Shown piece after piece: positions 1,691 through 17,514 of a stretch of DNA of 42,563 nucleotides. A model generated the notes under the pieces. The model saw nothing but the letters and a program-made list of their open reading frames with translations, was not told where the DNA came from and ran no database searches. The stretch is from IMG/VR virus record IMGVR_UViG_3300023478_000062, positions 1-42,563 of that record; one strand, given 5' to 3'. Origin of the DNA: a virus. The translations under genes were made by a program, and so were the position numbers. Position 1 is the first letter of the stretch, and each line of letters begins with the position of its first letter.

Positions 1691-1748
1691 AGATGATATA
1701 TATCAGCAATGTAAGAAACTAATCAAAAATAAAAAATAAAAAAAATAT

Positions 1749-2723: not shown

Positions 2724-2727
2724 TAAT

Positions 2728-3147: not shown

Positions 3148-3287
3148 AAACAATTATGCTAACACAAACTAATGCGCGTACTAAAAAAATATGAGAAATG
3201 CGTTAGTAACCCCACATAAAGACGAGGAAAACGCACCGTTTACTCTAAATAGTATTGCAGATAAAAAAACTTTATAAAGATAAAATT

Positions 3288-4553
3288 ATGAATAAACCAT
3301 TACTTGTTTTTCAAGGACCTATAGCTTGCAGGGCAGGCTACGGAGATCATTCTCGCGATTTATTAAAATCACTTTTTGAAATTGATAAATATAATGTAAA
3401 AATAATTCCTACACAATGGGGAACAACTCCACAAAACCAGATTAATCCACAAACTGAATTTGGCAAACGAACTATTGCTAGTATTATAACAAAACTAGAT
3501 GTACAACCTGATATATTCATACAGGTAACAGTAGCTAATGAATTTAAACCAATCGGTAAATATAATATTGGTATAACTGCAGGAGTAGAAACAACAGTTG
3601 TCCCACGTGAATTTATAGAGGGTTGCAACAAAATGGATTTAATATTAACACCATCTACTTTTACAAAAAATGTATTATTAAAAACTGCGTATAACCAAGT
3701 AGATAAACGAACTAACACTATTGTAAATGTACTTAAAATACAAAAACCTATATTAACCCTGTTTGAAGGAGTTGATTTAACGGTATATAATGGTAAATCA
3801 ATTGATAGCACATTTTTGGATAGTTCAGAGGTTGTTCCATTTTGTTACTTATTTGTTGGACATTGGTTGCCAGGAAGATTAGGAGAAGATAGAAAAGATG
3901 TTGGAATGCTGATTAAAACGTTTTGTACTGTATTCAAAAATACTCCATCAGAAAAACAGCCTGGTTTAATATTAAAAACATCATCTGCTGGATTTTCAAT
4001 AATAGATAGAGAAGTCATAGTTAAAAAGATAAAAGATGTACGAAACTCAATCGGTAAAAAATGTCCGCCAATATATTTATTATTTGGTGATTTAAAAGAA
4101 TCTGAGCTAAACGAGTTATATAATCATCCAAAGGTAAAATCAATGGTATCTTTTACTAAAGGAGAAGGGTATGGTAGACCATTAGCAGAATTTGCAACAA
4201 CAGGTAAACCAATTATAGTTTCAGAATGGAGTGGTCAACTTGATTTTCTTCCAAAAGATAATACAGTTTATTTAAAAGGTAAAGAAACTCCAGTACATGA
4301 AAGTGCACAAAATAAATTTATTTTAAAAGAAAGTAAATGGTTTACTGTAGATTATTCAATGGCAGCACAACAAATATTTAAAGTGTATAATAAATACAAA
4401 CAATATTTATTAGAATCAAACGGATTACAAACAAATATCCGTAGCAATTTTTCATTGAAAAAAATGACAGAAAAATTTGCTGAAATTCTCGATAAAAATA
4501 TACCAAAGGTAGAGCATATAGCTCTGGAATTACCAACCATTAAAAAACTATAA
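3288..4553 (+). CDS. Glycosyltransferase, GT4-like
   Basis: A 421-residue GT-B glycosyltransferase. The N-terminus MNKPLLVFQGPIACRAGYGD is a typical first strand and glycine loop. The C-terminal half has FTKGEGYGRPLAEFATTGKP, equivalent to the E-x7-E donor-binding region, followed by SEWSGQLDFL. I chose the ATG at 3288; an upstream TTG at 3255 would add 11 lysine-rich residues before the conserved first strand. Its stop overlaps the next start (TAATG). Similarity in plan to the split enzyme at 140-1690 suggests related acceptors, but neither substrate is known. Confidence 0.85.
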   Translation: MNKPLLVFQGPIACRAGYGDHSRDLLKSLFEIDKYNVKIIPTQWGTTPQNQINPQTEFGKRTIASIITKLDVQPDIFIQVTVANEFKPIGKYNIGITAGVETTVVPREFIEGCNKMDLILTPSTFTKNVLLKTAYNQVDKRTNTIVNVLKIQKPILTLFEGVDLTVYNGKSIDSTFLDSSEVVPFCYLFVGHWLPGRLGEDRKDVGMLIKTFCTVFKNTPSEKQPGLILKTSSAGFSIIDREVIVKKIKDVRNSIGKKCPPIYLLFGDLKESELNELYNHPKVKSMVSFTKGEGYGRPLAEFATTGKPIIVSEWSGQLDFLPKDNTVYLKGKETPVHESAQNKFILKESKWFTVDYSMAAQQIFKVYNKYKQYLLESNGLQTNIRSNFSLKKMTEKFAEILDKNIPKVEHIALELPTIKKL

Positions 4554-5107
4554 TGACAAATTACACACGAAAATACAAGCAAATAATGCAACCTGAAAAA
4601 CGGATTAGCAGAGGTGAAATAAAAGCGAGAAATATTTATCGAATTAGCACTTATAAAGATGGTGATCCACCAACTAAAACAGGAGAAAATACTCGTTATG
4701 TATTTGTTATAGGTAGAATTGGTAATAAAATTCATACAATTAAATTAAATGAAATTACGCCTATAAATTTTACTAACTTATTATTTAAACTTAGAGATAT
4801 ACGAGTACCAATAGGTGTTACTCAACAATTAAGTATTTTATTAAAAACATTTTCTCGTGATGGAAGTGTATTGTTTGAACAATATATTAAAGCCTCACCT
4901 AAAATTTATGGTCATGGTAAAAGTAATTATAGAATTTATAAAATAGATAAAATTCAGAATGTATGGGAAATTAGATTTGATACTTTCTTTTTAAAAAAAT
5001 TGTTTAAAGAAGATTCAACACCAGCAACTCGTGAACCAATAATAAAAAAACAAGTAGATAAACAGAAAGCAGATGATAGTGGCGATACTATTAGTGCTCC
5101 AAAATAA
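4553..5107 (+). CDS. Hypothetical protein
   Basis: A 184-residue basic protein I do not recognise. The N-terminus is rich in Arg, Lys and Tyr; the middle holds alternating strands (RYVFVIGRIGNKIHTI, then a YGHGKSNYRIYKI stretch); the last 30 residues are a lysine/aspartate-rich tail that looks disordered. There is no membrane segment or Cys pair. It overlaps the preceding glycosyltransferase by one base and lies 7 bases before a GT2 gene, so it is surely in the same transcript. The basic, compact character would fit nucleic-acid or virion binding, but that is a guess. Confidence 0.6.
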   Translation: MTNYTRKYKQIMQPEKRISRGEIKARNIYRISTYKDGDPPTKTGENTRYVFVIGRIGNKIHTIKLNEITPINFTNLLFKLRDIRVPIGVTQQLSILLKTFSRDGSVLFEQYIKASPKIYGHGKSNYRIYKIDKIQNVWEIRFDTFFLKKLFKEDSTPATREPIIKKQVDKQKADDSGDTISAPK

Positions 5108-5114
5108 ATAAATA

Positions 5115-5861
5115 ATGAACGAAAACACAACTATTAGTTATTGTATAACAGTAAAGGATGAATTAATAGAATTAACAACTTTACTAAATTTTCTGCAGTT
5201 ACATATCAGAAATGAAGATGAACTTGTAATACAATATGATCAAAATGGAGTTACTCCAGAAGTATTAGATTACTTAAATATATTGAAAAATATACATAAA
5301 AATTGTATTGTAACGGGGTTTCCATTGAATGATGATTTTGCAACATTTAAAAATAATTTAAAAAAGTATTGTACTAAAGATTATATAGTATCTTTGGATG
5401 CTGACGAAATTCCTCACGAAAACTTAATATTGAATTTACCAACTGTTTTAGAACGAAACCCAGTAGATATAATTTTCATACCAAGAATAAACATAGTTAA
5501 TGGACTTACTGAATTATATGCTAATAAATACGGTTGGAAAATTACTAAAATGGAATCACAAATTGGTGAGAAAATAATTGATACCGAAAGTGAAGAATAT
5601 AAATATCTAAAAAAACTAGGATATATTATAGAAGAAACTAATGATAAAATTAAATATTACAAACCCATAAACGCATGGCCCGATTATCAAACCCGGATAT
5701 ATCGTAGAACAGATGCTGTAGAATGGAGGAACAAAGTACATGAACGTATTACAGGTTACAGTACATTTGCTAATTTTCCAGCGCAAGAGGAATGGTCGTT
5801 ATATCATATAAAAAGTTTAAAAAAACAAATTAAACAAAATAATTATTACGAAAAATTATGA
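5115..5861 (+). CDS. Glycosyltransferase family 2
   Basis: This 248-residue protein has the GT-A plan: an N-terminal strand ISYCITVKDE, the metal- and nucleotide-binding motif DYIVSLDADEIPHE (DAD, equivalent to DxD) near residue 95-100, and a later RIYRRTDAVEWRNKVHERI segment of the kind seen in bacterial GT2 proteins that read tetrasaccharide or protein acceptors. It has no membrane segment, so it is probably cytosolic. It ends in an ATGA overlap with the interrupted ORF at 5858. Cotranscription with the upstream glycosyltransferases is likely. Donor sugar unknown. Confidence 0.85.
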   Translation: MNENTTISYCITVKDELIELTTLLNFLQLHIRNEDELVIQYDQNGVTPEVLDYLNILKNIHKNCIVTGFPLNDDFATFKNNLKKYCTKDYIVSLDADEIPHENLILNLPTVLERNPVDIIFIPRINIVNGLTELYANKYGWKITKMESQIGEKIIDTESEEYKYLKKLGYIIEETNDKIKYYKPINAWPDYQTRIYRRTDAVEWRNKVHERITGYSTFANFPAQEEWSLYHIKSLKKQIKQNNYYEKL

Positions 5862-6199
5862 AATTCACAAAATATTTAAGTAGTTTAATTAATGTACGGT
5901 TAGACAATTTAGAGCCAAAGATGAAGAAGCAATTTATAGTAGATGCTGGAAAACCATAGAATATAAAACCATTTGTAATTTCACGCATAAAGTTTAGTAC
6001 AGTTAGTATATTAGATGTCGTTGGGATACTAGTTTCAAAAATTCAATATAAAGATCAATTTTCTAATTTTTATTTTGGTACTTTAGACTGGGATGCTGAT
6101 TCTGCAAAAACAATAACTGACCTATTTAAGGTGGACGATGCAAACAGATTACCAATTAAAAAAAATAAGAATGAAACATTACAGAATAGAACTATTTGA
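5858..6199 (+). pseudogene. Small hypothetical ORF interrupted by TAG
   Basis: Starting at the ATGA overlap with the GT2 gene, this frame reads 33 codons (MKFTKYLSSLINVRLDNLEP...), meets a TAG at 5957-5959, then stays open for 79 more codons to TGA 6197-6199. The second part looks protein-like (DVVGILVSKIQYKD, FYFGTLDWDADSAKTITDLF). A coupled start and long open continuation suggest one 113-codon gene with a single nonsense codon. TAG ends other genes here (for example at 13974), so a wholesale amber recoding is not supported. It may be decay, a sequencing error or readthrough. Function unknown. Confidence 0.5.
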
Positions 6200-6539
6200 T
6201 GACGACTCAGATAAAAAAATTATAGGCGAAGTTAGTGAACAACAAATTATTGATATAAACGATAAATTTGGCATTGATGCAATATCGATATTAATTAGTA
6301 AATTACAAGAGGACTATTCAAAACTAAAACCCAGTTCTACCTCATTAAATGATACTAAACCAGATAATATAATGAATCCTATTAAATTAACAACTCATAA
6401 AAAATATATGGTATGGGATGATTTATTTGCTATACTTGCTTGGAAATTTACACCCACCAAAAACGGAGATATGATGTTAGATGGTGAAACAGTATACAAT
6501 GAATTAAAGGATAAATTCACACTAACTAGAAAAAAATAA
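6171..6539 (+). CDS. Hypothetical protein
   Basis: A 122-residue protein that I do not recognise. I prefer the ATG at 6171 (MKHYRIELFDDDSDKK); an in-frame ATG at 6138 would add 11 residues that overlap the end of the interrupted ORF. Residues 15-60 look like a helical, acidic segment (EQQIIDINDKFGIDAISILI), then a Ser/Thr/Pro linker, then MVWDDLFAILAWKF and a basic end. No membrane segment or catalytic motif is evident. It lies 12 bases before the deoxyribosyltransferase-like gene. Confidence 0.55.
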   Translation: MKHYRIELFDDDSDKKIIGEVSEQQIIDINDKFGIDAISILISKLQEDYSKLKPSSTSLNDTKPDNIMNPIKLTTHKKYMVWDDLFAILAWKFTPTKNGDMMLDGETVYNELKDKFTLTRKK

Positions 6540-6551
6540 AAATAAATAAAT

Positions 6552-7034
6552 ATGAAGTTAAAAACGCTAATAGAACGAGAAGAAAATGAAGTAACGGTAA
6601 TTAAAGCACCAGATAGTATTGTTGGTGTATATAATGGAGTATTTCTTGCGGGCTCAATAGAAATGGGTAAAGCAATCGATTGGCAAACCGAACTTACTAA
6701 TAAATGCAAAGGATTAAATATAACAATTTTAAATCCGCGAAGAGATGATTGGAATAGTTCATGGAAACAAACAATAAAAAATGATAAGTTTAGAACCCAG
6801 GTAGAATGGGAATTAAATGCGTTGGAATCTGCTGAAAAAATAGTGGTTTATTTTGATCCAAAAACTCAATCACCTATAACTCTAATGGAACTTGGTTTAT
6901 TTGCTAAAACAGGTAAAGTATGTGTTTGTTGCCCAGACGGATATTTTAGACGTGGTAATGTAGAAATTGTATGTAAAAAATATGGAGTTCCTATGGTAAA
7001 TAATATTGATGGATTAGTTAAATTTATAAAATAA
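6552..7034 (+). CDS. Nucleoside 2-deoxyribosyltransferase-like protein
   Basis: A 160-residue protein with the plan of the nucleoside 2-deoxyribosyltransferase-like family common in phages: GVFLAGSIEMGKAIDWQ (nucleotide-loop strand), ILNPRRDDWNSSW, a QVEWELNALESAEKIVVYFD segment and PITLMELGLF, where the glutamate fits the catalytic nucleophile position. Members move or cleave bases from deoxynucleosides or related substrates. The first residues, MKLKTLIERE, form the recurrent N-terminal motif discussed in the findings and precede the enzyme fold by about 20 residues. The substrate is uncertain; with dUTPase nearby, a role in nucleotide handling is plausible. Confidence 0.75.
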   Translation: MKLKTLIEREENEVTVIKAPDSIVGVYNGVFLAGSIEMGKAIDWQTELTNKCKGLNITILNPRRDDWNSSWKQTIKNDKFRTQVEWELNALESAEKIVVYFDPKTQSPITLMELGLFAKTGKVCVCCPDGYFRRGNVEIVCKKYGVPMVNNIDGLVKFIK

Positions 7035-7129
7035 TGAATATGTTTGATTTAGTGTTAGCGATAACTTGGTGTTTGCTTATCTATTTTTTATTTAGAATGT
7101 GCACGAATAATAATGATCCATTTAATTAA
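7034..7129 (+). CDS. Small single-pass membrane peptide
   Basis: A 31-residue ORF that begins on the last base of the previous stop codon. MNMFDLVLAITWCLLIYFLF is a single hydrophobic segment, followed by a short polar tail RMCTNNNDPFN. It lies between two recognisable genes with no spare space, and a second tiny membrane ORF of the same plan occurs at 8014, which supports both being real. Function unknown. Confidence 0.5.
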   Translation: MNMFDLVLAITWCLLIYFLFRMCTNNNDPFN

Positions 7130-7135
7130 TATAGT

Positions 7136-8044
7136 ATGAAATTTACAGCAATTTTTGCAAATGATGAAAACGATGAATGGTCAACTCCATTAGCTATTAT
7201 CAAAGAATTTGAATTTAGAGGATGGGAAACTGAAATAATAAGTATAGGTTCAAATAAAATCGGTATTTATCATGATTCAAACTTAAAAACATTTATACAA
7301 CAAAATAAACCAACTGATATAATAATGTTATTTGATTGGGGACGATTTGATTCAAAATGGTTAGATAAACGCTTAAATTCAAACGCGTTTTGGATACAAG
7401 AGAGCGGAGATGACCCACAAAATTTTGATAGAAATTTTAAAAAATCTCATAAATTTGATATGATTTTAACTCCAGACTACGATTCATATTTGGAATATAA
7501 AAAACGAGACAGACCAGCATATTGGCAAACTCATTTTGCTGATACTCGAACTCAATTTAATATTCAGCATCAAAAACCAGAATTTGTAGCGGTAACAACT
7601 AGAGGTATTGGCAATTCAAACTTTTTAGATACAATTACTGCTCATTCGAACGGAGCAGTAGGAAATAAGAATGGAATGAATTCGGTAAAACATACTACAT
7701 TTCTAAATAAAGGACTCATGGTTCTTCAAAATAGCAGATGGGGTGAAATAACACGTAGAATATTTGAAGGAATGGCATGTGGTAAAATGGTACTTACCGA
7801 TAGATTAAATGATTCAAAGAAATTACAAGAATTATTTACAGATAAAAAAGATATTGTGCTTTATGATGATATGGTAGATTGCATAAATAAAATGAATTAT
7901 TATAAGGAACATAATAAAGAACGAGATTTAATAATGAAAGCAGGATTTAGTAACGTAGTAAAATATCATACAGAAAGAAATAGAACAGATTTTATAATTA
8001 AAAAATTTAAAGAATGGAAGTTGGATACACCTCAGAAAACATAG
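7136..8044 (+). CDS. Glycosyltransferase, CgeB-like (GT-B)
   Basis: A 302-residue protein resembling CgeB/family 1-like glycosyltransferases. Its first half has WIQESGDDPQNFDRNF and ILTPDYDSYLEY, the usual order of strands in the acceptor domain. The second half contains KHTTFLNKGLMVLQNSRWGE and TRRIFEGMACGKMVLTDRL, the donor-binding E-GM-CG motif of this family. Length is at the short end, so the N-terminal domain is compact. It follows the membrane peptide by 6 bases, and its 3' end overlaps a second membrane peptide in another frame. Confidence 0.78.
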   Translation: MKFTAIFANDENDEWSTPLAIIKEFEFRGWETEIISIGSNKIGIYHDSNLKTFIQQNKPTDIIMLFDWGRFDSKWLDKRLNSNAFWIQESGDDPQNFDRNFKKSHKFDMILTPDYDSYLEYKKRDRPAYWQTHFADTRTQFNIQHQKPEFVAVTTRGIGNSNFLDTITAHSNGAVGNKNGMNSVKHTTFLNKGLMVLQNSRWGEITRRIFEGMACGKMVLTDRLNDSKKLQELFTDKKDIVLYDDMVDCINKMNYYKEHNKERDLIMKAGFSNVVKYHTERNRTDFIIKKFKEWKLDTPQKT

Positions 8045-8112
8045 TACCAGCAATAATTATATTTGTAATTGGAGTTGTATTATTACTAATATCTAAACGA
8101 ATGAAAAAATAA
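8014..8112 (+). CDS. Small single-pass membrane peptide (overlaps preceding gene)
   Basis: A 32-residue ORF in a different frame from the CgeB-like gene, overlapping it by 31 bases. It has a short polar N-terminus (MEVGYTSENI), one strong membrane segment (VPAIIIFVIGVVLLLIS) and a basic end (KRMKK), the topology of a positive-inside peptide with its C-terminus in the cytoplasm. Its TAA overlaps the next ATG (TAATG). Function unknown. Confidence 0.5.
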   Translation: MEVGYTSENIVPAIIIFVIGVVLLLISKRMKK

Positions 8113-8855
8113 TGGAAAAAAAACTAAATCTATCAATCGGAATTTTAGCTTGGAAATCGGGCCCAACTTTGATAAATACTTTGAATAGTTATTTTGTAAA
8201 TAGTTGGATACATCAAGTTAATGATGTATGTATTTTATTCCAAGAATTTTCAGAAGAAGATAAAAAAATCGCAGAACATTTTAATATACCATATATTGCT
8301 CATGATACAAATATCGGAATAGGAAATGCATTTATTGAGTTAACAAAACAAGCAAAAACTGAAAATGTATTAATACTAGAACACGATTGGAAACTAATCG
8401 AACCAACCGATGTTACGTTATCAAGATTAAAAAGTGGTATCGAGTTATTAAATAATGGATATAGTTGTGTACGATACCGTCATAGAAAACATCCAGGCAA
8501 TCCACACTTTTCATTTCAGTATAAAGGTAGAGAACTTACATACTATGATAAATTATTTGAAACTACCTCACCACATTTATTAGATTCTTTACATTGGCTA
8601 GACCCAGCAAAAGAATTTCCTGATAAAATCCAAAAAAACGGTGAATATTTTGTAACAACCTCACGATATGGAAATTGGACTAATAATCCGTGTATGTATA
8701 AAAAACAGTTTTATTTAGATATCGTAACTCCGTTTACTGGCGGTGGTATAGACTTAGAAGGTAATATTTCAAAATGGTGGTGTGAACAAACATATAAAGT
8801 TGCGCATGGTGAAGGTCTTTTTTCTCACGCCGATATTCAAAAATATGGAAAATAA
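8112..8855 (+). CDS. Glycosyltransferase-like protein (GT-A)
   Basis: This 247-residue protein begins with LSIGILAWKSGPTLINTLNS, a GT2-type first strand and loop, then NVLILEHDWKLIEP near residue 90, where HDW sits where the DxD metal motif is expected. The C-terminal half has NPCMYKKQFYLD and GGGIDLEGNISKWW, similar to the acceptor lid of small GT-A enzymes in phage and capsule clusters. It has no membrane segment. It overlaps the preceding membrane peptide, so translation is likely coupled. A transferase role is likely; the substrates are unknown. Confidence 0.7.
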   Translation: MEKKLNLSIGILAWKSGPTLINTLNSYFVNSWIHQVNDVCILFQEFSEEDKKIAEHFNIPYIAHDTNIGIGNAFIELTKQAKTENVLILEHDWKLIEPTDVTLSRLKSGIELLNNGYSCVRYRHRKHPGNPHFSFQYKGRELTYYDKLFETTSPHLLDSLHWLDPAKEFPDKIQKNGEYFVTTSRYGNWTNNPCMYKKQFYLDIVTPFTGGGIDLEGNISKWWCEQTYKVAHGEGLFSHADIQKYGK

Positions 8856-8856
8856 C

Positions 8857-8887
8857 TTTATAACTCCAATATTTATTCGTATATTTA
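8857..8887 (+). promoter_or_regulatory. Bacteroidota-type promoter
   Basis: TTTA (8857-8860), a 19-base spacer and TATATTTA (8880-8887) fit the Bacteroidota pattern TTTG-N19-TAnnTTTG with one change per box. Bases 8862-8886 are identical to 38423-38447, upstream of the MoxR-type gene. The start codon at 8894 is only 6 bases past the -7 box, so the mRNA for that gene would be almost leaderless or the start lies further in. Confidence 0.6.
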
Positions 8888-8893
8888 GTAATC

Positions 8894-9241
8894 ATGACAA
8901 ATAAAAATATAGAACGACTAATACTTAAATACACTAAGTTACCGTTAGAATGCGATGGACTTACTAAAGTAATTTCATACATATTAACTAAACATAACAT
9001 TAAGCATATAGTTTGCATTGGCAATTTAATAATAGATAATAAATCTATTTTACATTATTGGATAGAATTACCAAATAAAGATATTATAGATTACAGAGCT
9101 CGTATGTGGTTCGGTAATAATAACACAATTCCTAACGGTATATTTAATCCTACTAAATATAAGAATGCTAAATATGTTGCAAATAAAAAACTAAATTTAA
9201 AGGTTAGTGAATTTATATTTAAAATATTAACTAATGAATAG
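8894..9241 (+). CDS. Hypothetical protein
   Basis: A 115-residue protein I cannot assign. The central part (YWIELPNKDIIDYRARMWFG) recalls phage proteins with a transglutaminase-like core, because a His/Tyr-Trp-Ile-Glu strand is followed by an IDYRARMW strand. No catalytic Cys-His-Asp set can be confirmed: the Cys residues (20 and 41) are upstream of that strand. It begins just after a promoter-like site and its stop is overlapped by 8 bases by the next gene, so it is the first gene of a unit running into the nucleotidyltransferase fusion. Confidence 0.6.
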   Translation: MTNKNIERLILKYTKLPLECDGLTKVISYILTKHNIKHIVCIGNLIIDNKSILHYWIELPNKDIIDYRARMWFGNNNTIPNGIFNPTKYKNAKYVANKKLNLKVSEFIFKILTNE

Positions 9242-10610
9242 TAACCACTTACGATTAATTATTTTTGATTTGGATGGGGTGCTTGTATCGGCAAAGAATA
9301 TTCATTACGAAGCGTTAAATGAAGCTCTTGGTGATAAATACGCAATCAGTTGGAATGAACATTTATCTACATATGATGGTCTAAAGACTGTTCAGAAATT
9401 AGATATGTTAACAAAAGAAAAAGGATTACCTATAAGTAAACATCAAGCTATTTGGGAGCAAAAACAAATTCTTACTTTACAAAAATTATCTAAAGTAAAA
9501 CCAAATAAAGAAATTATTTTAATGTTGGGAGCTCTATCATCTGCAGGATATAAGATAGTAGTTGCGTCAAACAGCATAAGAAAGACAGTACTTACTGTTT
9601 TATCAAAAATGAAAATAATGGAGTATATGGATTTTGTAATATCTAATGAAGATGTACAAAATTCAAAGCCGCATCCAGAAATGTATTGGAAATCCATGTC
9701 AGTTATGGGATGCTTACCTGAAGAAACGTTAATAGTTGAAGATTCTCCATACGGATTATTAGCTGCATCACGAAGCAATTCGCATATATTACGAGTAAAA
9801 AATCCAAAAGATCTTACATATAAATTAATACTTGCTAAATTAAAAAAAATAAATATGGGTGAAACACAGAAAATACCAAAATGGACTGATGAAAAACTTA
9901 ATGTATTAATACCAATGGCAGGAGTTGGTTCTCGTTTTGAAAAAGTAGGTTATAAAACCCCAAAACCGTTAATTTCTGTTAACAATACGCCAATGATACA
10001 GTTGGTAGTTGAAAACTTAAATATAGATGCTAACTTTATATATGTCGTACAAAAATCACATAGAAAAAAATACAATTTAGATACGTTACTAAATTTAATA
10101 ACACCAAATTGTAAAATAATCGAAGTTGACGGAATAACAGAAGGTGCTGCTTGTACCACATTATTGGCGAAAAAACATATAGATAATGAAAATCCATTAT
10201 TCCTTGCAAATTCAGATCAATTTGTTGAATGGAATTCCAACGAATTTATGTATAAAATGAATGAAACAAATTGTGATGGCGGTATTGTAACCTTTAAATC
10301 CACACATCCAAAATGGTCTTTTGTAAAAATAAACGGTAAAGGATACATAACGGAAGTAGCTGAAAAAAAACCAATATCTGATAATGCGACCGTAGGATTT
10401 TATTATTGGAAACACGGTTCATCTTTCGTAAAATATGCAGAAGAAATGATAGAAAAAAATATACGAGTAAACGGTGAATATTATGTCTGTCCAGTATTTA
10501 ATCAAGCATTATTACATGGAGAAAAAATACGAACATGGAATGCAGATAAAATGTGGGGAATCGGTGACCCATCTTCATTAGATTATTTTTTAAAAAATTA
10601 TAAAATATAG
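9234..10610 (+). CDS. HAD phosphatase / sugar nucleotidyltransferase fusion
   Basis: Two enzymes are joined in 458 residues. Residues 1 to about 200 are a HAD phosphatase of the beta-phosphoglucomutase type: IIFDLDGVLVSAK (nucleophile Asp), VASNSIRKTV (motif II), NSKPHPEMYW (motif III Lys) and VEDSPYGLLAA (motif IV). From about residue 222 a nucleotidyltransferase follows: LNVLIPMAGVGSRF (G-x-G-x-R loop), TPKPLISVNNTPM and LANSDQFVEW. The second domain would activate a sugar phosphate as an NDP-sugar; the first may remove or check a phosphorylated sugar. It probably feeds the aminotransferase, acetyltransferase and glycosyltransferases downstream. Confidence 0.85.
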   Translation: MNSNHLRLIIFDLDGVLVSAKNIHYEALNEALGDKYAISWNEHLSTYDGLKTVQKLDMLTKEKGLPISKHQAIWEQKQILTLQKLSKVKPNKEIILMLGALSSAGYKIVVASNSIRKTVLTVLSKMKIMEYMDFVISNEDVQNSKPHPEMYWKSMSVMGCLPEETLIVEDSPYGLLAASRSNSHILRVKNPKDLTYKLILAKLKKINMGETQKIPKWTDEKLNVLIPMAGVGSRFEKVGYKTPKPLISVNNTPMIQLVVENLNIDANFIYVVQKSHRKKYNLDTLLNLITPNCKIIEVDGITEGAACTTLLAKKHIDNENPLFLANSDQFVEWNSNEFMYKMNETNCDGGIVTFKSTHPKWSFVKINGKGYITEVAEKKPISDNATVGFYYWKHGSSFVKYAEEMIEKNIRVNGEYYVCPVFNQALLHGEKIRTWNADKMWGIGDPSSLDYFLKNYKI

Positions 10611-10655
10611 TACGTTCGTATTTTTTCTTCATATTTATATGTAGAAAGTAATACT

Positions 10656-10846
10656 ATGATTATTTGCAAAATTGATAATACTAAGCATATTCATAACCGT
10701 GTATTTTCGGCGTATTTAAAACGATTTATAATATAACTGTACGGGAATATTATAATAAATATATACCAATGGATGCAAAAGATGTAGCAAAAAATGTAAT
10801 TTTAAAACTATAAATGAATTACTAAAAAACAATGGCGTCACATAAA
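10656..10846 (+). pseudogene. Small hypothetical gene with a frameshift
   Basis: An ATG at 10656 opens 26 codons (MIICKIDNTKHIHNRVFSAY...) to TAA at 10734-10736. In the -1 frame, from 10727, reading continues as YNITVREYYNKYIPMDAKDV and on to TAA 10844-10846, overlapping the next start at 10833. One extra T in the TTT run at 10725-10727 would restore one 64-codon gene. A promoter-like ATATTTATAT lies at 10631-10640. This, with the next entry, fills most of the 364-base gap between annotated genes. Function unknown. Confidence 0.45.
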
Positions 10847-10978
10847 ACAAAAAATAAAAAATTAGTATCGTATAGTATTGATAAAAATATTATCAAAGTA
10901 TTTAACGAATATTGTAAAAATAATAGTATAAATAAATCGTTATTAATTGAAAACTACATTAAATCTTTTATAAAATGA
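10833..10978 (+). pseudogene. Ribbon-helix-helix-like small protein with a frameshift
   Basis: The ATG at 10833 reads MASHKTKNKN and stops at TAG 10863. In the next frame the sequence runs KLVSYSIDKNIIKVFNEYCK and on to TGA 10976-10978, which forms an ATGA overlap with the following gene. A strand (LVSYSI) followed by two helices (DKNIIKVFNEYCKNN, then NKSLLIENYIKSFI) is the ribbon-helix-helix plan of small DNA-binding regulators. One more A in the run at 10857-10861 would give a single 48-residue protein. Either a decayed regulator or a sequencing slip. Confidence 0.5.
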
Positions 10979-11430
10979 ACAAATTTTTAATAGCGCACAG
11001 AGGCAACACAAACGGCAGACTTGAATCTCACGAGAACGAACCAACTTATATAGATTTAACTATTAAACTAGGATACGATGTAGAAACAGATGTTTGGTAT
11101 AAAAATAGCATATTATGGTTAGGACATGATAATCCACAGTATGAAGTTAATTTTAGGTGGCTTAGAGATAGGATTACAAAATTATGGATACATTGTAAAG
11201 ATATAAAAACAATTGAGTTTATATCGAATTTAGGATATAATTTTAATTACTTTTACCATACAGACGAAGATGTAGTATTAACTTCCAAAGGATATTTATG
11301 GGTATATCCAGGAAAACAACCGATTAAAAATAGTATATCTGTACTTCCTGAATTACATAATGACGATTATAGTGAATGTATAGGAATATGTTCTGATGAA
11401 ATAGAAAAATATAAAATTAAAAATGAATAA
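10975..11430 (+). CDS. Glycerophosphodiester phosphodiesterase-like protein
   Basis: A 151-residue protein with the opening signature of the GDPD/PLC-like TIM-barrel family: FLIAHRGN (His-Arg-Gly), then ENEP, then GYDVETDVWY (the E-x-D metal site) and LWLGHDNP (second His). GDPDs are usually 230-300 residues, so only about half of the barrel is present; WIHCKDIKTIEF and YFYHTDEDVV continue the strand-helix order. Small GDPD-like proteins of this sort occur in capsule and phage loci beside glycosyltransferases. It may act on a phosphodiester-linked glycan or lipid, but the short barrel leaves activity uncertain. Confidence 0.7.
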   Translation: MNKFLIAHRGNTNGRLESHENEPTYIDLTIKLGYDVETDVWYKNSILWLGHDNPQYEVNFRWLRDRITKLWIHCKDIKTIEFISNLGYNFNYFYHTDEDVVLTSKGYLWVYPGKQPIKNSISVLPELHNDDYSECIGICSDEIEKYKIKNE

Positions 11431-11644
11431 AGTACTAAATTTAAAATCAAGTGTAAACAGTATGGGCAAATATGTTACTCAAATTATTCATGGCATTAAT
11501 GGAACTAAACATACTATTCATGGTGTTGATACTGAAACTATTAAACAAGGACAGCTGACCAAGTTTAGAACTAAAGATGGTAGAATGATTATGATAAATG
11601 ATAAAAATGTAATTCTTGTAGAAATATTTAATGAGTTAGAATGA
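11423..11644 (+). CDS. Small conserved-looking hypothetical protein
   Basis: A 73-residue protein overlapping the GDPD-like gene by 8 bases and the next gene by 4. After a short basic start, MGKYVTQIIHGINGTKHTIH gives paired beta strands, continuing with LTKFRTKDGRMIMINDKNVI. It looks like a small beta-barrel (SH3- or Sm-like) phage protein. The internal ATG at 11462 could be the real start. No enzyme motif is visible. Confidence 0.6.
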   Translation: MNKVLNLKSSVNSMGKYVTQIIHGINGTKHTIHGVDTETIKQGQLTKFRTKDGRMIMINDKNVILVEIFNELE

Positions 11645-12303
11645 AAGTAGCATTATTATTATCAGGATTACCAAGAAAAGTAAAAGAAGGATATAACCAA
11701 TATTTTAAACACATTATAGATAACTATAATACTGATGTATATTTACATTATTGGGAAGATAGAGAATATAATGAAGTTTTAAAATATTACAATCCTAAAA
11801 AATATATTTGTGAACCACCTAAATATTTTGGGGATGACATTAAAGGTATAGATACCCTTCATGATAAAAAAACAAGGCCTGATTTGAGATTTGGGGTTGC
11901 TGGTAATTATTATATGTATCTTATTGTTTGGGGATGGCAACAATCGTTTAATTTAATTGAGAGAGATTATGATTGTATTGTAAAGAGTAGATATGATATT
12001 GGTTGGAAAACTCCAATAGATTTAAGAAAATTGGATTTAACAAAATTAAATATATCTAATATGCATTGGTCTAATAGCTTAATTCCAGATGATAATTTAC
12101 TAATAACCAACCATGAAATGGCTAAGCAATTATATGGTGGTATTTATGATTTTTGGAAATATATAGCAAAAGAGCGTGGATATATAGAATTTCCAGAAAA
12201 GAATTTAAAATATTTACTAGAACAAAAAGGAATGTATAATTATATTTGTAAATCTCCATATTTACTATTTAATTTATTAAGAGAAAACAAAATCTGGTAT
12301 TAA
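11641..12303 (+). CDS. Glycosyltransferase-like protein of capsule type
   Basis: A 220-residue protein starting MKVALLLSGLPRKVKEGYNQ, the opening of a family of capsule/LPS-linked putative glycosyltransferases that begin with LSG-x-R followed by a lattice of Tyr/Trp strands. YDCIVKSRYDIGW near residue 115-127 is the diagnostic KxR-D segment of that family, possibly the donor site. It has no classic DxD motif. Overlap of 4 bases with the preceding gene and a short gap to the aminotransferase put it in the glycan operon. A transferase role is inferred from family resemblance and context. Confidence 0.68.
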   Translation: MKVALLLSGLPRKVKEGYNQYFKHIIDNYNTDVYLHYWEDREYNEVLKYYNPKKYICEPPKYFGDDIKGIDTLHDKKTRPDLRFGVAGNYYMYLIVWGWQQSFNLIERDYDCIVKSRYDIGWKTPIDLRKLDLTKLNISNMHWSNSLIPDDNLLITNHEMAKQLYGGIYDFWKYIAKERGYIEFPEKNLKYLLEQKGMYNYICKSPYLLFNLLRENKIWY

Positions 12304-12314
12304 AATTTAAAAAT

Positions 12315-13502
12315 ATGAAAACAACAAAAAAAATGATTCCGTTATTTAAAGTATTTATGAGTCCAACTGCAAAATATGAAGTTGGTAAAGTACTAGATAG
12401 TGGATATATAGGTCAAGGCCCGAAGGTTGAACAGTTTGAAAGAGAATTACAACAGTATTTTGGTCATGACAAAATATTAACTTTAAACTCTGGCACCTCT
12501 GCATTACATTTAGCAATTCATCTATTAAAACGTAAACAGTCATATTTAAAGGATGAATTTAACGGAGTAGCATTTACAACAAATAAATGGCCTGGATTAG
12601 AACCTGATGACGAAGTGTTAGCTACTTCGTTAACGTGCACTGCATCTAATTTTCCAATCTTAGCGAATGGATTAAAAATAAAATGGGTGGATATTGATCC
12701 TAAAACACTTAATATGGATTTGGGTGATTTAGCTAGAAAAATAACTAAGAAAACAAAAATAATTATGGGTGTGCACTGGGGTGGATATCCATTAGATTTA
12801 GATAAAATAAAAAAAATTCAAGAAGAAGCTGAAAACCGAGTTGGATTTAGACCGAGATTAATCGAAGATGGAGCACATGCATTTGGAACTACATATAAAG
12901 GTAGACAAATGGGAGCATCAGGTAATATTTTTATGAATTCATTACAAGCAATAAAACATATAACTTCGGTTGATGGCGGATTATTACACTTACCAACAAA
13001 TGAATTATATGAAAGAGCTAAATTAGCACGCTGGTATGGTATAGATAGAAGTCCAAAAGGCCGAAGCGATTTTAGATGTGAAGCTAATATTACAGAATGG
13101 GGATTTAAATTTCATATGAATGATGTTAATGCAACCGTTGGTATTGAAAATTTAAAATTTGCTGATGATATTATTAGTAAACATAAAAATAATGCTAAAT
13201 ATTACGATGAACATTTAAAAAATACAAAAGGAGTAACATTATTAGAACGCGAACCTGGATTTGATTCTTCATTTTGGATATATTCTATACTTGTAGATAA
13301 TAGACCGGCATTTTATGAACACATGAAAAAATGCAATATAATGGTTTCACAAGTACATGAACGAAACGATAAACACACATGCGTTTCAGAATATAAAACT
13401 GAATTGCCTAATTTGGATAAAACAATTGGAAAAGTCGTGAATATACCCGTGGGCTGGTGGATAACACGTGAAGAATGTGAATATATAATAAATTTTATTT
13501 AA
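12315..13502 (+). CDS. DegT/DnrJ/EryC1/StrS-type sugar aminotransferase
   Basis: A PLP-dependent aminotransferase that adds an amino group to an NDP-keto-sugar. The 395-residue protein has GYIGQGPKVEQFERELQQYF, LNSGTSALHLAI (PLP phosphate loop), IIMGVHWGGYP, LIEDGAHAFG (Asp for the PLP ring) and SLQAIKHITSVDGG, in which Lys near residue 218 is the expected Schiff-base lysine. Length is normal. The GNAT gene downstream would acylate the new amine, a pairing seen in Qui4NAc, Fuc4NAc and perosamine pathways. The needed keto-sugar would come from a dehydratase; the only candidate in the window is the epimerase-like gene at 41153. Confidence 0.9.
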   Translation: MKTTKKMIPLFKVFMSPTAKYEVGKVLDSGYIGQGPKVEQFERELQQYFGHDKILTLNSGTSALHLAIHLLKRKQSYLKDEFNGVAFTTNKWPGLEPDDEVLATSLTCTASNFPILANGLKIKWVDIDPKTLNMDLGDLARKITKKTKIIMGVHWGGYPLDLDKIKKIQEEAENRVGFRPRLIEDGAHAFGTTYKGRQMGASGNIFMNSLQAIKHITSVDGGLLHLPTNELYERAKLARWYGIDRSPKGRSDFRCEANITEWGFKFHMNDVNATVGIENLKFADDIISKHKNNAKYYDEHLKNTKGVTLLEREPGFDSSFWIYSILVDNRPAFYEHMKKCNIMVSQVHERNDKHTCVSEYKTELPNLDKTIGKVVNIPVGWWITREECEYIINFI

Positions 13503-13548
13503 CAAAAATAGGTTATTAATACAATCAAGAAATAAATTTAAATAAACA

Positions 13549-13974
13549 ATGGTAACATTACGATTATTAACAGAAGATGATTTAGAATTTTTATTGGAAA
13601 TTAGAAATCATACTTCAACACGACAATTTTTATTAAATACTTCATTATTCACATTAACAGAGTGTAAAGAATGGTACAGTAATTTATTGTATCCCTACTA
13701 TATTATAGAAAACAAACTTGGCGAGCGAGTTGGTTATTTTAGAACAAATGGTAACATTATTGGCTGCGATATTCATATGGATTATAGACGTAAGGGATAT
13801 GCAAAAGAAGCATACATTGAATATTTAAAAGATAAAAATTACGCTAGATTATACGTATTAGATACAAACTTTGCAAAAAAACTGTATGAACAACTTGAAT
13901 TTAAATATACAGGTATAACAAAAAAGTTTAAGACGAATAATAATTGGTTAGAAATGGAATGGAAACGAAAATAG
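13549..13974 (+). CDS. GNAT acetyltransferase (RimJ/RimL-like)
   Basis: A 141-residue GNAT-fold acyltransferase: VTLRLLTEDDLEFLLEIRN at the start, GYFRTNGNIIGCDI as the central strands and DYRRKGYAKEAY, the R-x-x-G-x-A acetyl-CoA loop, near residue 80. YVLDTNFAKKLYEQLEFKYT is the usual final helix-strand. Placed directly after the DegT aminotransferase, it most likely acylates the sugar amine; protein or antibiotic substrates cannot be ruled out. It ends with TAG and overlaps the next gene by 16 bases. Confidence 0.82.
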   Translation: MVTLRLLTEDDLEFLLEIRNHTSTRQFLLNTSLFTLTECKEWYSNLLYPYYIIENKLGERVGYFRTNGNIIGCDIHMDYRRKGYAKEAYIEYLKDKNYARLYVLDTNFAKKLYEQLEFKYTGITKKFKTNNNWLEMEWKRK

Positions 13975-14717
13975 GATACACAATAGCTGCATATTTTGGT
14001 AAGCGAAATTATTCACATTATCAATATAAAAATGATATGCTTTTTTATGTAAGAATTCAATTAGCAAAGATTGATAATTCTAATATTATTCCTTACAAAA
14101 TTTATATTATATGTACCTTTGATACCATAGTAGATAAAGAAAAAATACTATCAGAATTATATAAATTAAAAAATAATAGAACTAATATAGTTATAGTTAC
14201 GCGAGGAAACACTGGTGGATCATATTGTAGTTGGCATTCTGTGTTGCAACTAGATAATAATCAATGTGATTACATGATATTAACAGAAGATGATTATGTA
14301 ATATATAATTCTGATGCTATATCGGAGTTATTAAAATATTTTAATAAATATTCTGAATTATTTTATATTACTATGTACTGGACACATAAACCATATAAAA
14401 CACTATCCAATTTAATTGTACAATGCCATGCAGCTATTTCGCCTGGTATGATAAATGTTAAAATGTATCAAAAACTAAAACAAGATTATAATCTTGATTT
14501 TCAATTAGTATATAATCCTGCAGAAAATTATATTAGTATGTGGGAAAATCAAGCATTATTTTTAGAACCATATAGAAAAAATGGAGTTTTAATAATGGAT
14601 ATTACACAAGAACATAGTGTTATTTTTAGTAGTGATACAAACGGTACAATAGAATATGGAAATCCAAACGGAACACTAGTATTTTTACCGATAATGAATA
14701 AATACTTTAAAGCATGA
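13959..14717 (+). CDS. Glycosyltransferase-like protein (GT-A)
   Basis: A 252-residue protein starting at ATG 13959 (METKIGYTIAAYFGKRNYSH); a TTG at 13944 in the same frame is less likely. CDYMILTEDDYVIYNSD near residue 105-115 gives the acidic metal-binding motif (EDD) of GT-A enzymes, preceded by NTGGSYCSWHSVL, a common donor-contact segment. The C-terminal third is less conserved. It overlaps the GNAT gene by 16 bases and the next gene by 4 (ATGA). It belongs to a run of four GT-A-like genes with similar EDD/DTD motifs. Confidence 0.7.
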   Translation: METKIGYTIAAYFGKRNYSHYQYKNDMLFYVRIQLAKIDNSNIIPYKIYIICTFDTIVDKEKILSELYKLKNNRTNIVIVTRGNTGGSYCSWHSVLQLDNNQCDYMILTEDDYVIYNSDAISELLKYFNKYSELFYITMYWTHKPYKTLSNLIVQCHAAISPGMINVKMYQKLKQDYNLDFQLVYNPAENYISMWENQALFLEPYRKNGVLIMDITQEHSVIFSSDTNGTIEYGNPNGTLVFLPIMNKYFKA

Positions 14718-15475
14718 ATAAATTAATAAGTGGGTATCTATGGGCATTTAAAAATTATAAAGCTGGAAGAACATCTGTAAAAACATTACGTAAATTTTAT
14801 CCCGATTCTGATTTATTTATCAATGTAGATTTTGATGGAAATCATTCAGAATATAAAGTAGTATCGCAAGAACTAAATACATCTTATAGTAAAAATAAGT
14901 TCCAACTAGGATATTGTGGAGATTTTGGCAATGTAAAGACTGGCAGAAAATGCTGGTCAAGAGAAGCTACGTTTGAATGGGTACGAGGAATTTATGACGC
15001 ATGTAAAAAAACAGATTCTAAATATATGATATTACTAGAGGAAGACGATTATATTTTAAATTATATCTCAATATTATCAACAAATTTTTCAATGGCTATT
15101 CATCCAACTGACCCATCACCAACCGGCAGAAAACGACCAAATGGAATCCCGTCATACTTCCAAGACTATATTAAAAAATATGGTGGCAACCCATCTTCGC
15201 CAGGATATGCAGCAGGTGGCGGAACAATTTTTAATAGATTAGAATTTATAGAAGCATGGGAAACACATAAAGATAATTTGTGGGATTCCTACGATGATTT
15301 AATGTCAAACAATAAAATAATAGGTTGGGCAGATTATATACTACAATTTATAATGCAATTGAATGGATACGAGATAATCCAAAATAATCAGTTATGTGAA
15401 GAATGGGAAGTACCAGCATGGAAAGAATATGAAATAGTTACTGGATTAAAAAATTATAAATTAATAAACTTATGA
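14714..15475 (+). CDS. Glycosyltransferase-like protein (GT-A)
   Basis: A 253-residue protein with SKYMILLEEDDYILNYISIL near residue 108-120 as the acidic GT-A motif and AAGGGTIFNRLEFIEAW later, where a Gly-rich turn precedes an acceptor helix. It shares the plan MILxEDDY with the preceding gene, so the two may be old duplicates that diverged. ATGA overlaps join it to both neighbours. It has no membrane segment. The role is inferred from fold motifs and context. Confidence 0.68.
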   Translation: MNKLISGYLWAFKNYKAGRTSVKTLRKFYPDSDLFINVDFDGNHSEYKVVSQELNTSYSKNKFQLGYCGDFGNVKTGRKCWSREATFEWVRGIYDACKKTDSKYMILLEEDDYILNYISILSTNFSMAIHPTDPSPTGRKRPNGIPSYFQDYIKKYGGNPSSPGYAAGGGTIFNRLEFIEAWETHKDNLWDSYDDLMSNNKIIGWADYILQFIMQLNGYEIIQNNQLCEEWEVPAWKEYEIVTGLKNYKLINL

Positions 15476-16269
15476 AATATACAATAATAGGGTGCATAAC
15501 TAAATATACAGTTAATGATATTAAACCGTATGTTGAATCGATAGAACAATCAGGGTTTACTGGAAAAAAATTGATGTTAGTTTATGATGTAACAAACCAA
15601 GTTGTAGAATATCTTAAAATAAAAGGTTGGGAAATATATAGTTCAGTTTTAAAAGAGCACATTATAATACAACGTTTTAGAGATGTTTATTCACTTTTGG
15701 ATAACTATATTGATGACATAATTATATGGACAGACGTAAAGGATGTGGTGTTCCAGCGAAATCCTATTTCATGGATTGAAACTCATAAAACAAAAGAAAT
15801 AATGTCATTTTCAGAATGTGTTGTATTTAAAGATGATGATTGGGCTTGTACTAATGCAGGAACTTCATTTCCTATTGAATGGAAATGGTTACAAAACAAA
15901 ACTTCTTATTGTGCAGGTACAATAATAGCAGATGCAAAAGCATTAAAAGATTTATTTATTGAAATATATCATTGGAGTAAAACGACTTCAAATCCAAATC
16001 AATTGTCTGATCAAGCAGCATATAATATATTAATAAATTTAAATCATTTTAAAGAAAATGTACAATTTGTAAAACAGGAAGAAGGCGGGGTAACCCAACT
16101 TGGAACGGTTTTTATTAAAAAAAATGTGTTTGGTAATAAATTATTAGAACCAACACCAAAATATAAGGATGGAATATTTACAACACAAACCGATGAACCG
16201 TTTGCAATAGTTCATCAATACGATAGAGATACACGAATAAAATTATCTATAATAAATAAATATAGATGA
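15472..16269 (+). CDS. Glycosyltransferase-like protein
   Basis: A 265-residue protein with IIIWTDVKDVVFQRNPISWI near residue 83-100, the DxKDVVFQ form of the metal motif seen in galactosyltransferase-like and nucleotide-diphospho-sugar transferase proteins. TSYCAGTIIADAKALKDLF follows, where an invariant A/N-GTI segment contacts the donor, then SDQAAYNILIN (DQ-hxN), typical of those families. Overlaps of 4 bases on both sides indicate a coupled operon. Donor and acceptor unknown. Confidence 0.75.
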   Translation: MKYTIIGCITKYTVNDIKPYVESIEQSGFTGKKLMLVYDVTNQVVEYLKIKGWEIYSSVLKEHIIIQRFRDVYSLLDNYIDDIIIWTDVKDVVFQRNPISWIETHKTKEIMSFSECVVFKDDDWACTNAGTSFPIEWKWLQNKTSYCAGTIIADAKALKDLFIEIYHWSKTTSNPNQLSDQAAYNILINLNHFKENVQFVKQEEGGVTQLGTVFIKKNVFGNKLLEPTPKYKDGIFTTQTDEPFAIVHQYDRDTRIKLSIINKYR

Positions 16270-17159
16270 AAATAGTAATATCGATATTTTGTCTAGCACG
16301 TGAAATCGATGAGTTAGAAAGAACCGTTACACAATTACGTAATAATATTCCATATTTAGAAAATCCAGATGAGTGGTATTTAGATGTAAAATTAAACGTA
16401 AGTGATGATATGGTTATTTGGAATGAATCTAGTTTACCAAAAGAATATTTTATAGAAAAATTTAAAACAATTGGTAAACATTGCGGATTTAAAAATGCAG
16501 TATTTAAAATTACAGATAAAATTAAAGGATGCGTATCACAACGTGCTGATACATTAAAAATATATAACACAGCAGATTATTTTATCTGGCTAGATACAGA
16601 TATAATTTTTTGTGATAGAACATTAGCATATTTTAAAACCGCTATTCAACAAACTATGGAAAAATATCCATACTCAATTATAACTCCTGAAATAGTTAGA
16701 GTTTGGGATTCTACTTGGGATTGTTTAGTGCATGATGATTTTATTAATAAACCATTAGATTATCAAAAAACTAATAATCCGTACATAGATAGTGGAATAA
16801 AAGGTAATATAACAATAGAAACCGTACATAATACTATTAAAAATCAACCTACATTTAAATTTGCAGGGGGGTGGTTCACTTGTATATCTGGTAAATTATT
16901 ACGTAGGATTGGAGTGCCAACCTCGCTTGGACATTATGGATTGGAGGATACTTTTATAATGTATGGTGCTGAAAAACTAGCACGGTTAAATCGAATAAAT
17001 CCCTATCAGTTTAAACTTAAAGGGTTAATTGTTTGTGAAAACTATCTATATCGCGATAGTAAATATATAACAAATAATCTAAAAAGTATTGATAGACGAG
17101 ATGAATTTAAAAAAATAGCGTATCAGCATTTTCAACAAGAATTAAATAATCTAAATTAA
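16266..17159 (+). CDS. Glycosyltransferase-like protein (GT-A, GT2/GT27-like)
   Basis: A 297-residue protein beginning MKIVISIFCLAREIDELERT. DYFIWLDTDIIFCDRTLAYF near residue 105-120 is a clear DTD motif, and FAGGWFTCISGKLLRRIGVP with GHYGLEDTFIMYG near 200-235 is the (G)W-G-ED acceptor-side motif of GT2/GT27-like enzymes. This is the strongest GT-A candidate of the run. It closes the glycan operon: its stop codon lies inside the terminator at 17148. Confidence 0.8.
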   Translation: MKIVISIFCLAREIDELERTVTQLRNNIPYLENPDEWYLDVKLNVSDDMVIWNESSLPKEYFIEKFKTIGKHCGFKNAVFKITDKIKGCVSQRADTLKIYNTADYFIWLDTDIIFCDRTLAYFKTAIQQTMEKYPYSIITPEIVRVWDSTWDCLVHDDFINKPLDYQKTNNPYIDSGIKGNITIETVHNTIKNQPTFKFAGGWFTCISGKLLRRIGVPTSLGHYGLEDTFIMYGAEKLARLNRINPYQFKLKGLIVCENYLYRDSKYITNNLKSIDRRDEFKKIAYQHFQQELNNLN

Positions 17160-17177
17160 ACATTTAGATTTTTTTTA
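17148..17177 (+). terminator. Intrinsic terminator of the glycan operon
   Basis: A 9-base stem (17148-17156 with 17162-17170), a 5-base loop and a T-rich run of more than 6 bases. The stem starts inside the last codons of the preceding gene, so the stop codon is at the loop. Confidence 0.8.
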
Positions 17178-17217
17178 TTTAATTAATTAAAATAATATAG
17201 TTATATTTACAAATTTT

Positions 17218-17225
17218 TATATTTA
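17218..17225 (+). promoter_or_regulatory. Promoter-like -7 box TATATTTA
   Basis: TATATTTA followed by TATGTAAC lies 22 bases before the start at 17248 and just after the operon terminator. It is one of at least eight copies of (T/A)ATATTTA upstream of short units in this window. A good -33 TTTG box is not visible here. Confidence 0.45.
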
Positions 17226-17247
17226 TATGTAACATAAAGCAATTAAA

Positions 17248-17514
17248 ATGAAATTTAATAATGTATATTTAACTGAAGCAATAAATGAACCACAGATTAT
17301 AAAGGATTTGAGATGGATTGTTAAACATAAACAAGCTAAACAAATAAAAGATCCCATTAGTAAAAAATCCGTTCGTGTTAATTTACTTACAGCAATTGCG
17401 ATAACAAACATATATGATAAAATTAGTAAACGAAATCAAAAGCAATATGTAACGGTTGGAATACCAAAAATGAAAAAAGTAGCAAATGATATAATAAAAG
17501 ACCAAAAATCATGA
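17248..17514 (+). CDS. Small hypothetical protein with capsid-targeting-like N-terminus
   Basis: An 88-residue basic protein (about a quarter Lys/Arg) that I do not recognise. MKFNNVYLTEAINEPQIIKD starts with the recurrent motif ending in L-T-E-A. The rest is helical: DLRWIVKHKQAKQIKD and NLLTAIAITNIYDKISKRN. A small basic protein with a removable leader would fit a DNA-associated internal head protein, but that is inference. It is alone behind its own promoter-like box. Confidence 0.6.
   Translation: MKFNNVYLTEAINEPQIIKDLRWIVKHKQAKQIKDPISKKSVRVNLLTAIAITNIYDKISKRNQKQYVTVGIPKMKKVANDIIKDQKS

Follow-up and report, generated by a model that had tools for sequence, protein, structure and literature searches.

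Why would a single phage carry about ten glycosyltransferases (GTs) together with enzymes for two building blocks, and to what would the resulting glycan be attached? This question is raised by IMG/VR virus record IMGVR_UViG_3300023478_000062, a 42,563-base record of the linear class (end repeats absent) with a G+C content of 28%, the whole of which we analyzed and refer to as the window. A reading of the letters alone (the sequence-only reading) had singled out 9234-17159 as a compact operon for nucleotide sugars and GTs. Every open reading frame (ORF) that it named in this interval was located as described, and the interval forms the right half of a cassette that extends over about twenty genes on a single strand (140-17159; Table 1). 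The best explanation that we can offer for this cassette, in which our confidence is evenly balanced, is soluble, cytoplasmic glycosylation of phage (virion) proteins by a T4-like phage.

A conserved and modular glycan locus

The first important finding is that the cassette is a real, conserved, and modular phage glycan locus. Window proteins were used as queries against 80 virus loci with the fusion of HAD and nucleotidyltransferase domains (HAD-NTase) and 80 with the aminotransferase DegT, which revealed the cassette, with its gene order almost unchanged, in about 25 distinct IMG/VR contigs, duplicates being counted once. Thirty loci have seven or more cassette genes: 20 of them follow the window order perfectly, and in 8 a single gene is displaced. 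For 28 of these 30, no more than 4 of 2000 random orders do as well. Relatives' cassettes also hold epimerase, UDP-glucose-dehydrogenase-like, TagD-like, cupin, and KAS III genes. By analogy, a stable order in which acyl, methyl, and accessory genes are exchanged recalls bacterial surface-polysaccharide loci. In a tree of 86 HAD-NTase proteins, most viral sequences including that of the window fall into a single well-supported group of 50 viral and 3 cellular members. Five changes of virus/cell label are needed on this tree, at least three of them forced by well-supported branches, which argues for repeated movement of the gene between viruses and cells.

The window itself is likely to come from a marine T4-like phage of Bacteroidota (flavobacterial) hosts, because a Gp23-type (T4-like) capsid gene is present in 10 of the 14 larger records bearing cassette genes, and because proteins that look secreted, with signal peptides of Bacteroidota style as judged by eye, come after the cassette in the related loci L104 and L248. 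In the window, which is a fragment, no capsid gene was recognized. No near-DNA match to 9000-17500 was found among 50,697 phage records, and at the protein level the nearest relatives of the HAD-NTase and DegT come from different phages. The HAD-NTase is closest to those of Synechococcus T4-like phages (56% identity). The cyanophages S-CAM9, S-PRM1, and B23 share with the window this fusion, a homologue of the short GDPD-like gene (47%), and several adjacent GTs, as well as the epimerase in S-CAM9 and S-PRM1; they differ in their cyanobacterial hosts, in that no DegT-GNAT module was found in them, and in that their other GTs do not match those of the window at the search cut-off. The nearest cultured relative of DegT (57% identity) is in Flavobacterium phage immuto, whose gene cluster (NC_055915, gp181-gp169) has homologues of 140/761, 3255, 5115, DegT, 11423, and the epimerase (genes are named here by their start positions). 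Immuto thus resembles the window in its run of GT, DegT, methyltransferase, and epimerase genes and in its Gp23 capsid, but the 31 kb examined hold no homologue of the HAD-NTase, GDPD, GNAT, or 13959-16266 GT genes, in whose stead there are a methyltransferase and other sugar genes.

Two predicted building blocks and the transferases

The second important finding concerns the first building block, which is predicted to be an N-acylated amino sugar. The ORF that follows DegT, in the 70 virus loci having one, belongs to the cluster of GNATs and GT-GNAT fusions in 38 cases (37 of them matched directly), and is a formyltransferase in 6, a hexapeptide transferase in 3, and a methyltransferase in 8, so that N-acylating enzymes occupy this slot in 47 of the 70. 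The presence of three unrelated amine-acylating folds in one slot argues strongly that the product of DegT would be a primary amine that becomes N-acylated or N-formylated. In the window this step is likely catalyzed by the GNAT, which in relatives occurs fused to a GT-like domain. The proposal that DegT and GNAT together make such a sugar, already part of the sequence-only reading, is reinforced by both the slot and the fusions. One relative (L119) adds KAS III and SDR genes to its cassette, hinting at unusual acyl groups.

As for the substrate, the PLP (pyridoxal phosphate)-lysine region of DegT is conserved (SLQAIKH, aligning with SFQALKH of AtmS13), and its nearest solved structures are by far AtmS13 (4zwv/4xau, 1.7e-111) and CalS13 (4zas, 2.8e-95), with the next best at 8.7e-34. 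The C-terminal motif RND.H.CV...LP.LD...PVGWW is common to all three proteins. CalS13 and AtmS13, which we take to serve aminopentose pathways, offer a lead only: they belong to the actinobacterial antibiotic pathways of calicheamicin and AT2433, whereas the DegT of the window adjoins an acyltransferase in a phage. The pair also recalls the PseC and PseH steps of pseudaminic acid synthesis, in which a sugar C-4 aminotransferase is followed by a GNAT and which are the top NCBIfam matches of the two proteins. However, both matches fall far under the equivalog cut-offs (189.5 bits against 423.5 for PseC, which we rejected as the identity of DegT), and neither the PseB dehydratase nor PseG/PseI was recognized in the window. 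Elsewhere in the window, 34479-35183 encodes a pyridoxamine-phosphate-oxidase-like protein that would supply PLP, the cofactor of DegT; both Pfam domains match, and part of the FMN-domain region is seemingly missing in comparison with typical PdxH.

The epimerase predicted at 41153 is confirmed. It sits 24 kb downstream of the gene run, but it belongs with the cassette because 57-64% homologues lie within the cassettes of L104, L110, L153, L133, and L248, which bears out the link drawn by the sequence-only reading. In L104, L110, and L248 a UDP-glucose-dehydrogenase-like gene lies beside it. Although UXS1 was among the best matches in the PDB search, we rejected assignment as a UDP-xylose synthase or 4,6-dehydratase, since the protein has SSSRHH where 4,6-dehydratases have an acidic pair.

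The second building block would come from the HAD-NTase and the short GDPD-like protein. The predicted HAD and nucleotidyltransferase fusion was borne out by strong matches (Table 1), and the active-site motif residues of both domains are invariant across 16 diverse members; for the HAD domain, beta-phosphoglucomutase is the best subfamily, yet below its cut-off. The GDPD-like protein has no Pfam match and, with 151 amino acids, is much shorter than full-size PF03009 GDPDs (about 240 amino acids). Its assignment nonetheless holds, as the catalytic residues are kept: H8, R9, E20, E37, D39, H51, and K75 are invariant in 20 members, and D52 nearly so. PF03009 is recognized in a longer cellular relative (L240; 3.4e-7), and an AlphaFold2 model (pLDDT 96) has mostly GDPDs as its best Foldseek matches, which are weak (E about 0.01, TM up to 0.54). 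We read this family of 138-167 amino acids as an apparently shrunken GDPD-like domain, far smaller than classical GDPDs. Its members (10975-11430 in the window; L211:8548-8994) are candidates for a minimal fold, for which the de novo barrel sTIM11, with 184 residues, provides a yardstick of size (PMC13105402).

The two genes form a module in viruses and in cells. They lie at most 3.5 kb apart in 68 of the 80 loci from viruses. Among the cellular loci they are direct neighbors in 41 of 79, mostly of SAR11 and also of SAR86, Poseidoniales, Methylophilaceae, and others. The cellular pairs of SAR11, SAR86, and marine archaea consist of the same two genes as in the window, and differ in that no close DegT-GNAT module was found with them. 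Distant cellular relatives have longer, Pfam-matching GDPDs, separate HAD and nucleotidyltransferase genes, and a cupin; Legionella relatives have LicD beside the HAD-NTase, without a GDPD; and a TagD-like cytidylyltransferase is beside or near the GDPD gene in L104, L110, and L248. These neighborhoods hint that the product of the module may carry a phosphodiester-linked or phospho-alcohol substituent. A literature search found no paper on the HAD-NTase/GDPD pair and none on the sugar genes of immuto.

About ten transferases, the number given by the sequence-only reading, is a fair count, also when taken as GT families, although roughly half of them are inferred. To the left of 9234 it had seen four transferases at 140-8855, where there are instead six GT ORFs corresponding to five genes, as the ORFs at 140 and 761 are the halves of one GT-B enzyme. 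This enzyme is one uninterrupted frame in 55 relatives and is split in the window and in L029, its sister in the HAD-NTase tree (support 100/93). In L029 the split gene is at 435-1929, and its homologue of the 3255 GT is also in two pieces. Because the split is common to the sister, in which both halves are open, it looks like a gene fission rather than sequencing error or decay. By their family matches (Table 1), 761, 7136, 5115, and 3255 are clear or fair GTs, with 5115 barely over its cut-off. The protein encoded at 8112, without a match in the Pfam search, is the best conserved of the cassette (57-77% in most relatives).

The five GT-like genes announced for the right half (11641, 13959, 14714, 15472, and 16266) fared unequally. 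Pfam and PDB-sequence searches gave no significant match for any of them, PDB profile searches with the 14714, 15472, and 16266 families no credible match, and profile-profile comparison of all five with other cassette families, mainly the GT2-type 5115, was negative. The best case is 14714, which on its predicted model has a GT-A fold: the top Foldseek matches are UGGT (2.1e-8), LgtC, TarP, and glycogenin (E 2e-8 to 3e-6, prob 1.00). When viral contigs were scanned with 14714 by itself, four loci and no new type came up. The 13959 protein is supported through one of its GT-GNAT fusion relatives, which has a weak GT2 match (0.0058). For 11641, 15472, and 16266, by contrast, the assignment comes from motifs and context, and among these three and 13959, DxD-like motifs are found in 15472 and 16266 only. 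A scan of 47 members of the GT-like families produced five matches to GT2 (best 0.0016) and one to PLOD-GT (7.9e-5).

The acceptor of the glycan

How might these parts work together? We propose that DegT, using PLP, would aminate a nucleoside diphosphate (NDP)-4-keto sugar, possibly a pentose, and that the GNAT would then N-acylate the resulting amino sugar, while the HAD-NTase and the short GDPD would prepare and nucleotide-activate the second building block. About ten soluble GTs would join both units, along with ordinary NDP-sugars of the host, into an oligosaccharide, whose assembly would most likely take place directly on phage proteins in the cytoplasm (virion O-glycosylation). Since peripheral genes are swapped between phages, each phage would probably have its own glycan type, much as O-antigen loci provide in bacteria. 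Substrates, reaction order, and acceptor are inferred in this scheme.

Hydropathy analysis gave no convincing membrane segment for any cassette protein, the lone stretch, in the HAD domain, being barely above threshold, whereas membrane proteins of the window used as controls score 2.3-2.9. Furthermore, no flippase, polymerase, lipid-carrier transferase, membrane GT, or oligosaccharyltransferase was recognized in the cassette, leaving it without a recognizable Gtr-type set for host serotype conversion. Together, these features favor direct glycosylation of proteins in the cytoplasm, or action on lipid A/core. The glycosylation systems of mycobacteriophages reportedly use few GTs, whereas the window has about ten together with sugar-making enzymes. 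What these systems would share with the window is phage-encoded glycosylation, and there it is the capsid and tail proteins that are modified (Freeman et al. 2023, in the citing passage of PMC12619734).

Several points weigh against glycosylation of virion proteins. The glycan is a prediction from the genes and comes without an assigned acceptor protein. No recognized virion genes adjoin the cassette in the window. Three to four of the putative GTs are assigned from motifs and context, and soluble GTs could equally modify lipid A/core on the inner side of the host membrane. Finally, no 4,6-dehydratase, UDP-glucose dehydrogenase, UDP-GlcA decarboxylase, or other enzyme making a 4-keto sugar was recognized in the window, so the keto-sugar precursor is probably supplied by the host or its gene lies outside the fragment. 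The genes recognized here do not demonstrate that the phage makes its sugar wholly by itself.

The leading rival is remodeling of the host surface, in which soluble GTs would alter the lipooligosaccharide or capsule of the host during infection. We regard this as possible yet on the unlikely side, and the same holds for its suggested consequences, namely, that it might block superinfection or change recognition by other phages and grazers. GTs of the lipopolysaccharide core are likewise soluble. The HAD-NTase/GDPD module is common to SAR11 and other cells and has LicD as a neighbor in Legionella, and GT and epimerase genes of T4-like cyanophages are usually read as changing the host cell wall (PMC9602691). 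However, the missing flippase, polymerase, lipid-carrier transferase, and membrane GT speak against it here, and a lytic phage has little time for surface remodeling.

Modification of phage DNA, in which sugars on modified bases would block restriction, is improbable. Phage GTs are known to glycosylate DNA, a role lately widened to a variety of DNA glycans (Pyle et al. 2024, in the citing passage of PMC12619734), and there are many DNA methyltransferases in the window. In addition, two cassette-bearing relatives (G001 and G003) encode divergent thymidylate-synthase-like proteins of 232 amino acids (L257:173-871 and L258:462-1160) with Asp where thymidylate synthase has Asn (by eye); no such gene was recognized in the window. 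The proteins of the relatives may be nucleotide hydroxymethylases, which keeps DNA modification among the candidates. However, no match to a DNA-glucosyltransferase (AGT/BGT) Pfam family at E<=1 was obtained in the cassette, and immuto, G002, and G005 (a fragment) have canonical thymidylate synthase matches only, with none in S-CAM9. A Tet/JBP search was silent, as were its controls. Ten GT families also exceed what a single base linkage needs, in line with the view of the sequence-only reading that so many transferases would be unusual for masking DNA bases alone.

Last, the reading of the cassette as a loose collection of decaying morons and auxiliary metabolic genes that share no product, which the one split GT and the differing gene content of relatives might suggest, is very improbable in view of gene-order conservation far beyond random orders, high identities across distinct contigs, and the fission-like split shared with L029.

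Gene inventory and implications

Table 1. Features of the cassette and the associated epimerase, with positions in the window
Feature	Positions	Strand	Basis
GT-B glycosyltransferase in two ORFs	140-751 (N half), 761-1690 (C half)	+	PF00534 3.7e-11 on C half
GT-B glycosyltransferase	3255-4553	+	phrog_2170 1.1e-10; Pfam 0.054; conserved cassette position
Cassette-conserved protein	4553-5107	+	lies between 3255 and 5115 GT homologues, in relatives too
GT2-type glycosyltransferase	5115-5861	+	PF00535 3e-5, 24.4 bits vs cut-off 23.3
Glycosyltransferase (Glyco_trans_1_2)	7136-8044	+	PF13524 3.8e-20
Putative glycosyltransferase	8112-8855	+	position alone: conserved immediately before HAD-NTase
HAD phosphatase/mutase-like domain and nucleotidyltransferase fusion (NDP-X synthesis)	9234-10610	+	HAD_2 1e-31; phrog_3980 2.8e-71
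48-amino-acid ORF, unlisted	10832-10978	+	ATGA overlap with GDPD start; translation
Short GDPD-like phosphodiesterase, 151 amino acids	10975-11430	+	catalytic residues HRGN, EN, VExD, GHD, K; pairing with HAD-NTase
Small protein, function unassigned	11423-11644	+	51-56% homologues adjoining DegT in L003, L127
Putative glycosyltransferase	11641-12303	+	cassette position; phrog_13607 1.3e-19 (function unknown)
DegT/DnrJ/EryC1/StrS PLP-dependent sugar aminotransferase	12315-13502	+	PF01041 4.7e-67, residues 21-393
GNAT acyltransferase	13549-13974	+	PF00583 1.5e-4, above cut-off; PseH 9.3e-5, below cut-off
Putative glycosyltransferase	13959-14717	+	homologous to N-terminal part of GT-GNAT fusions in relatives
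GT-A glycosyltransferase (by model)	14714-15475	+	AlphaFold2 model, pLDDT 89, then Foldseek
Putative glycosyltransferase	15472-16269	+	conserved WTDVKDVIF-type motif
Putative glycosyltransferase	16266-17159	+	conserved WLDTDIIF (DxD) and GHYGLEDT motifs
Intrinsic-terminator-like A+T-rich hairpin, then T8	about 17147-17176	+	folding vs shuffles
NAD-dependent NDP-sugar epimerase	41153-41980	+	PF01370 1e-47; motif SSSRHH...YxxxK

The genes of 9234-17159 had been described as joined by 4-base overlaps. This applies to five ATGA junctions (11641/11644, 14714/14717, 15472/15475, 16266/16269, and that between the 48-amino-acid ORF and the GDPD gene), but the others differ, with 8-base overlaps at 9234/9241 and 11423/11430, one further overlap of 16 bases, and gaps of 221 (10611-10831), 11, and 46 bases. 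The interval is a run of same-strand genes rather than a uniform 4-base-overlap operon. The single terminator said to close it was found (z -3.5, with 0 of 200 shuffles folding equally well); a generic terminator scan overlooked this hairpin because it is A+T-rich.

Some smaller or neighboring genes deserve mention. The 48-amino-acid ORF had no significant match in the Pfam search, the best being DUF6364 at 0.005, under the cut-off. The Pfam search likewise gave nothing significant for the 4553-5107 protein, which has 42-56% homologues in L029, L104, L097, L099, L105, and others and is a candidate for a cassette-specific acceptor or partner. A GroES-like co-chaperonin gene (by eye) lies in or beside the cassette in L104 (2153-2452), L097 (4750-5055), and L248 (190-492). 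About eight DNA methyltransferase-like genes (N6_N4, EcoRI-type, Dam-type, and others) occupy 24019-32253, and an S-adenosylmethionine synthetase is encoded at 1749-2723. Unrelated proteins encoded at 6552, 17248, 20165, 20554, and 33205 have a similar LK.LI.EA/LTEA-like stretch at their N termini or at an internal start, which by eye resembles the cleavable head-targeting peptides of T4-like phages. Finally, 36182-39711 encodes a 665-amino-acid protein (VWA-like by eye, with no Pfam match) beside a MoxR/CobS-type AAA ATPase; the closest records come from Microcystis phage Mel-JY01 and an uncultured phage of 484 kb.

Phage sugar gene sets are known in outline; the present set stands out for its completeness and for including an uncharacterized building-block pathway. 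We tentatively suggest, as a possibility rather than an expectation, that large T4-like marine phages have serotype-like modular glycan loci, which would give each its own virion sugar coat, built from an amino sugar with an N-acyl or N-formyl group and from a chemically novel unit activated by the HAD-NTase/short-GDPD pathway common to SAR11 and other marine cells. If this is true, phage particles would display diversified sugar coats as bacteria do, which would bear on adsorption, anti-phage recognition, and phage classification. The nucleotide-activated compound made by a two-gene module of SAR11, SAR86, marine archaea, and many phages would become a defined question, and, because the cultured phage immuto carries part of the cassette, the aminotransferase half would be open to direct testing.

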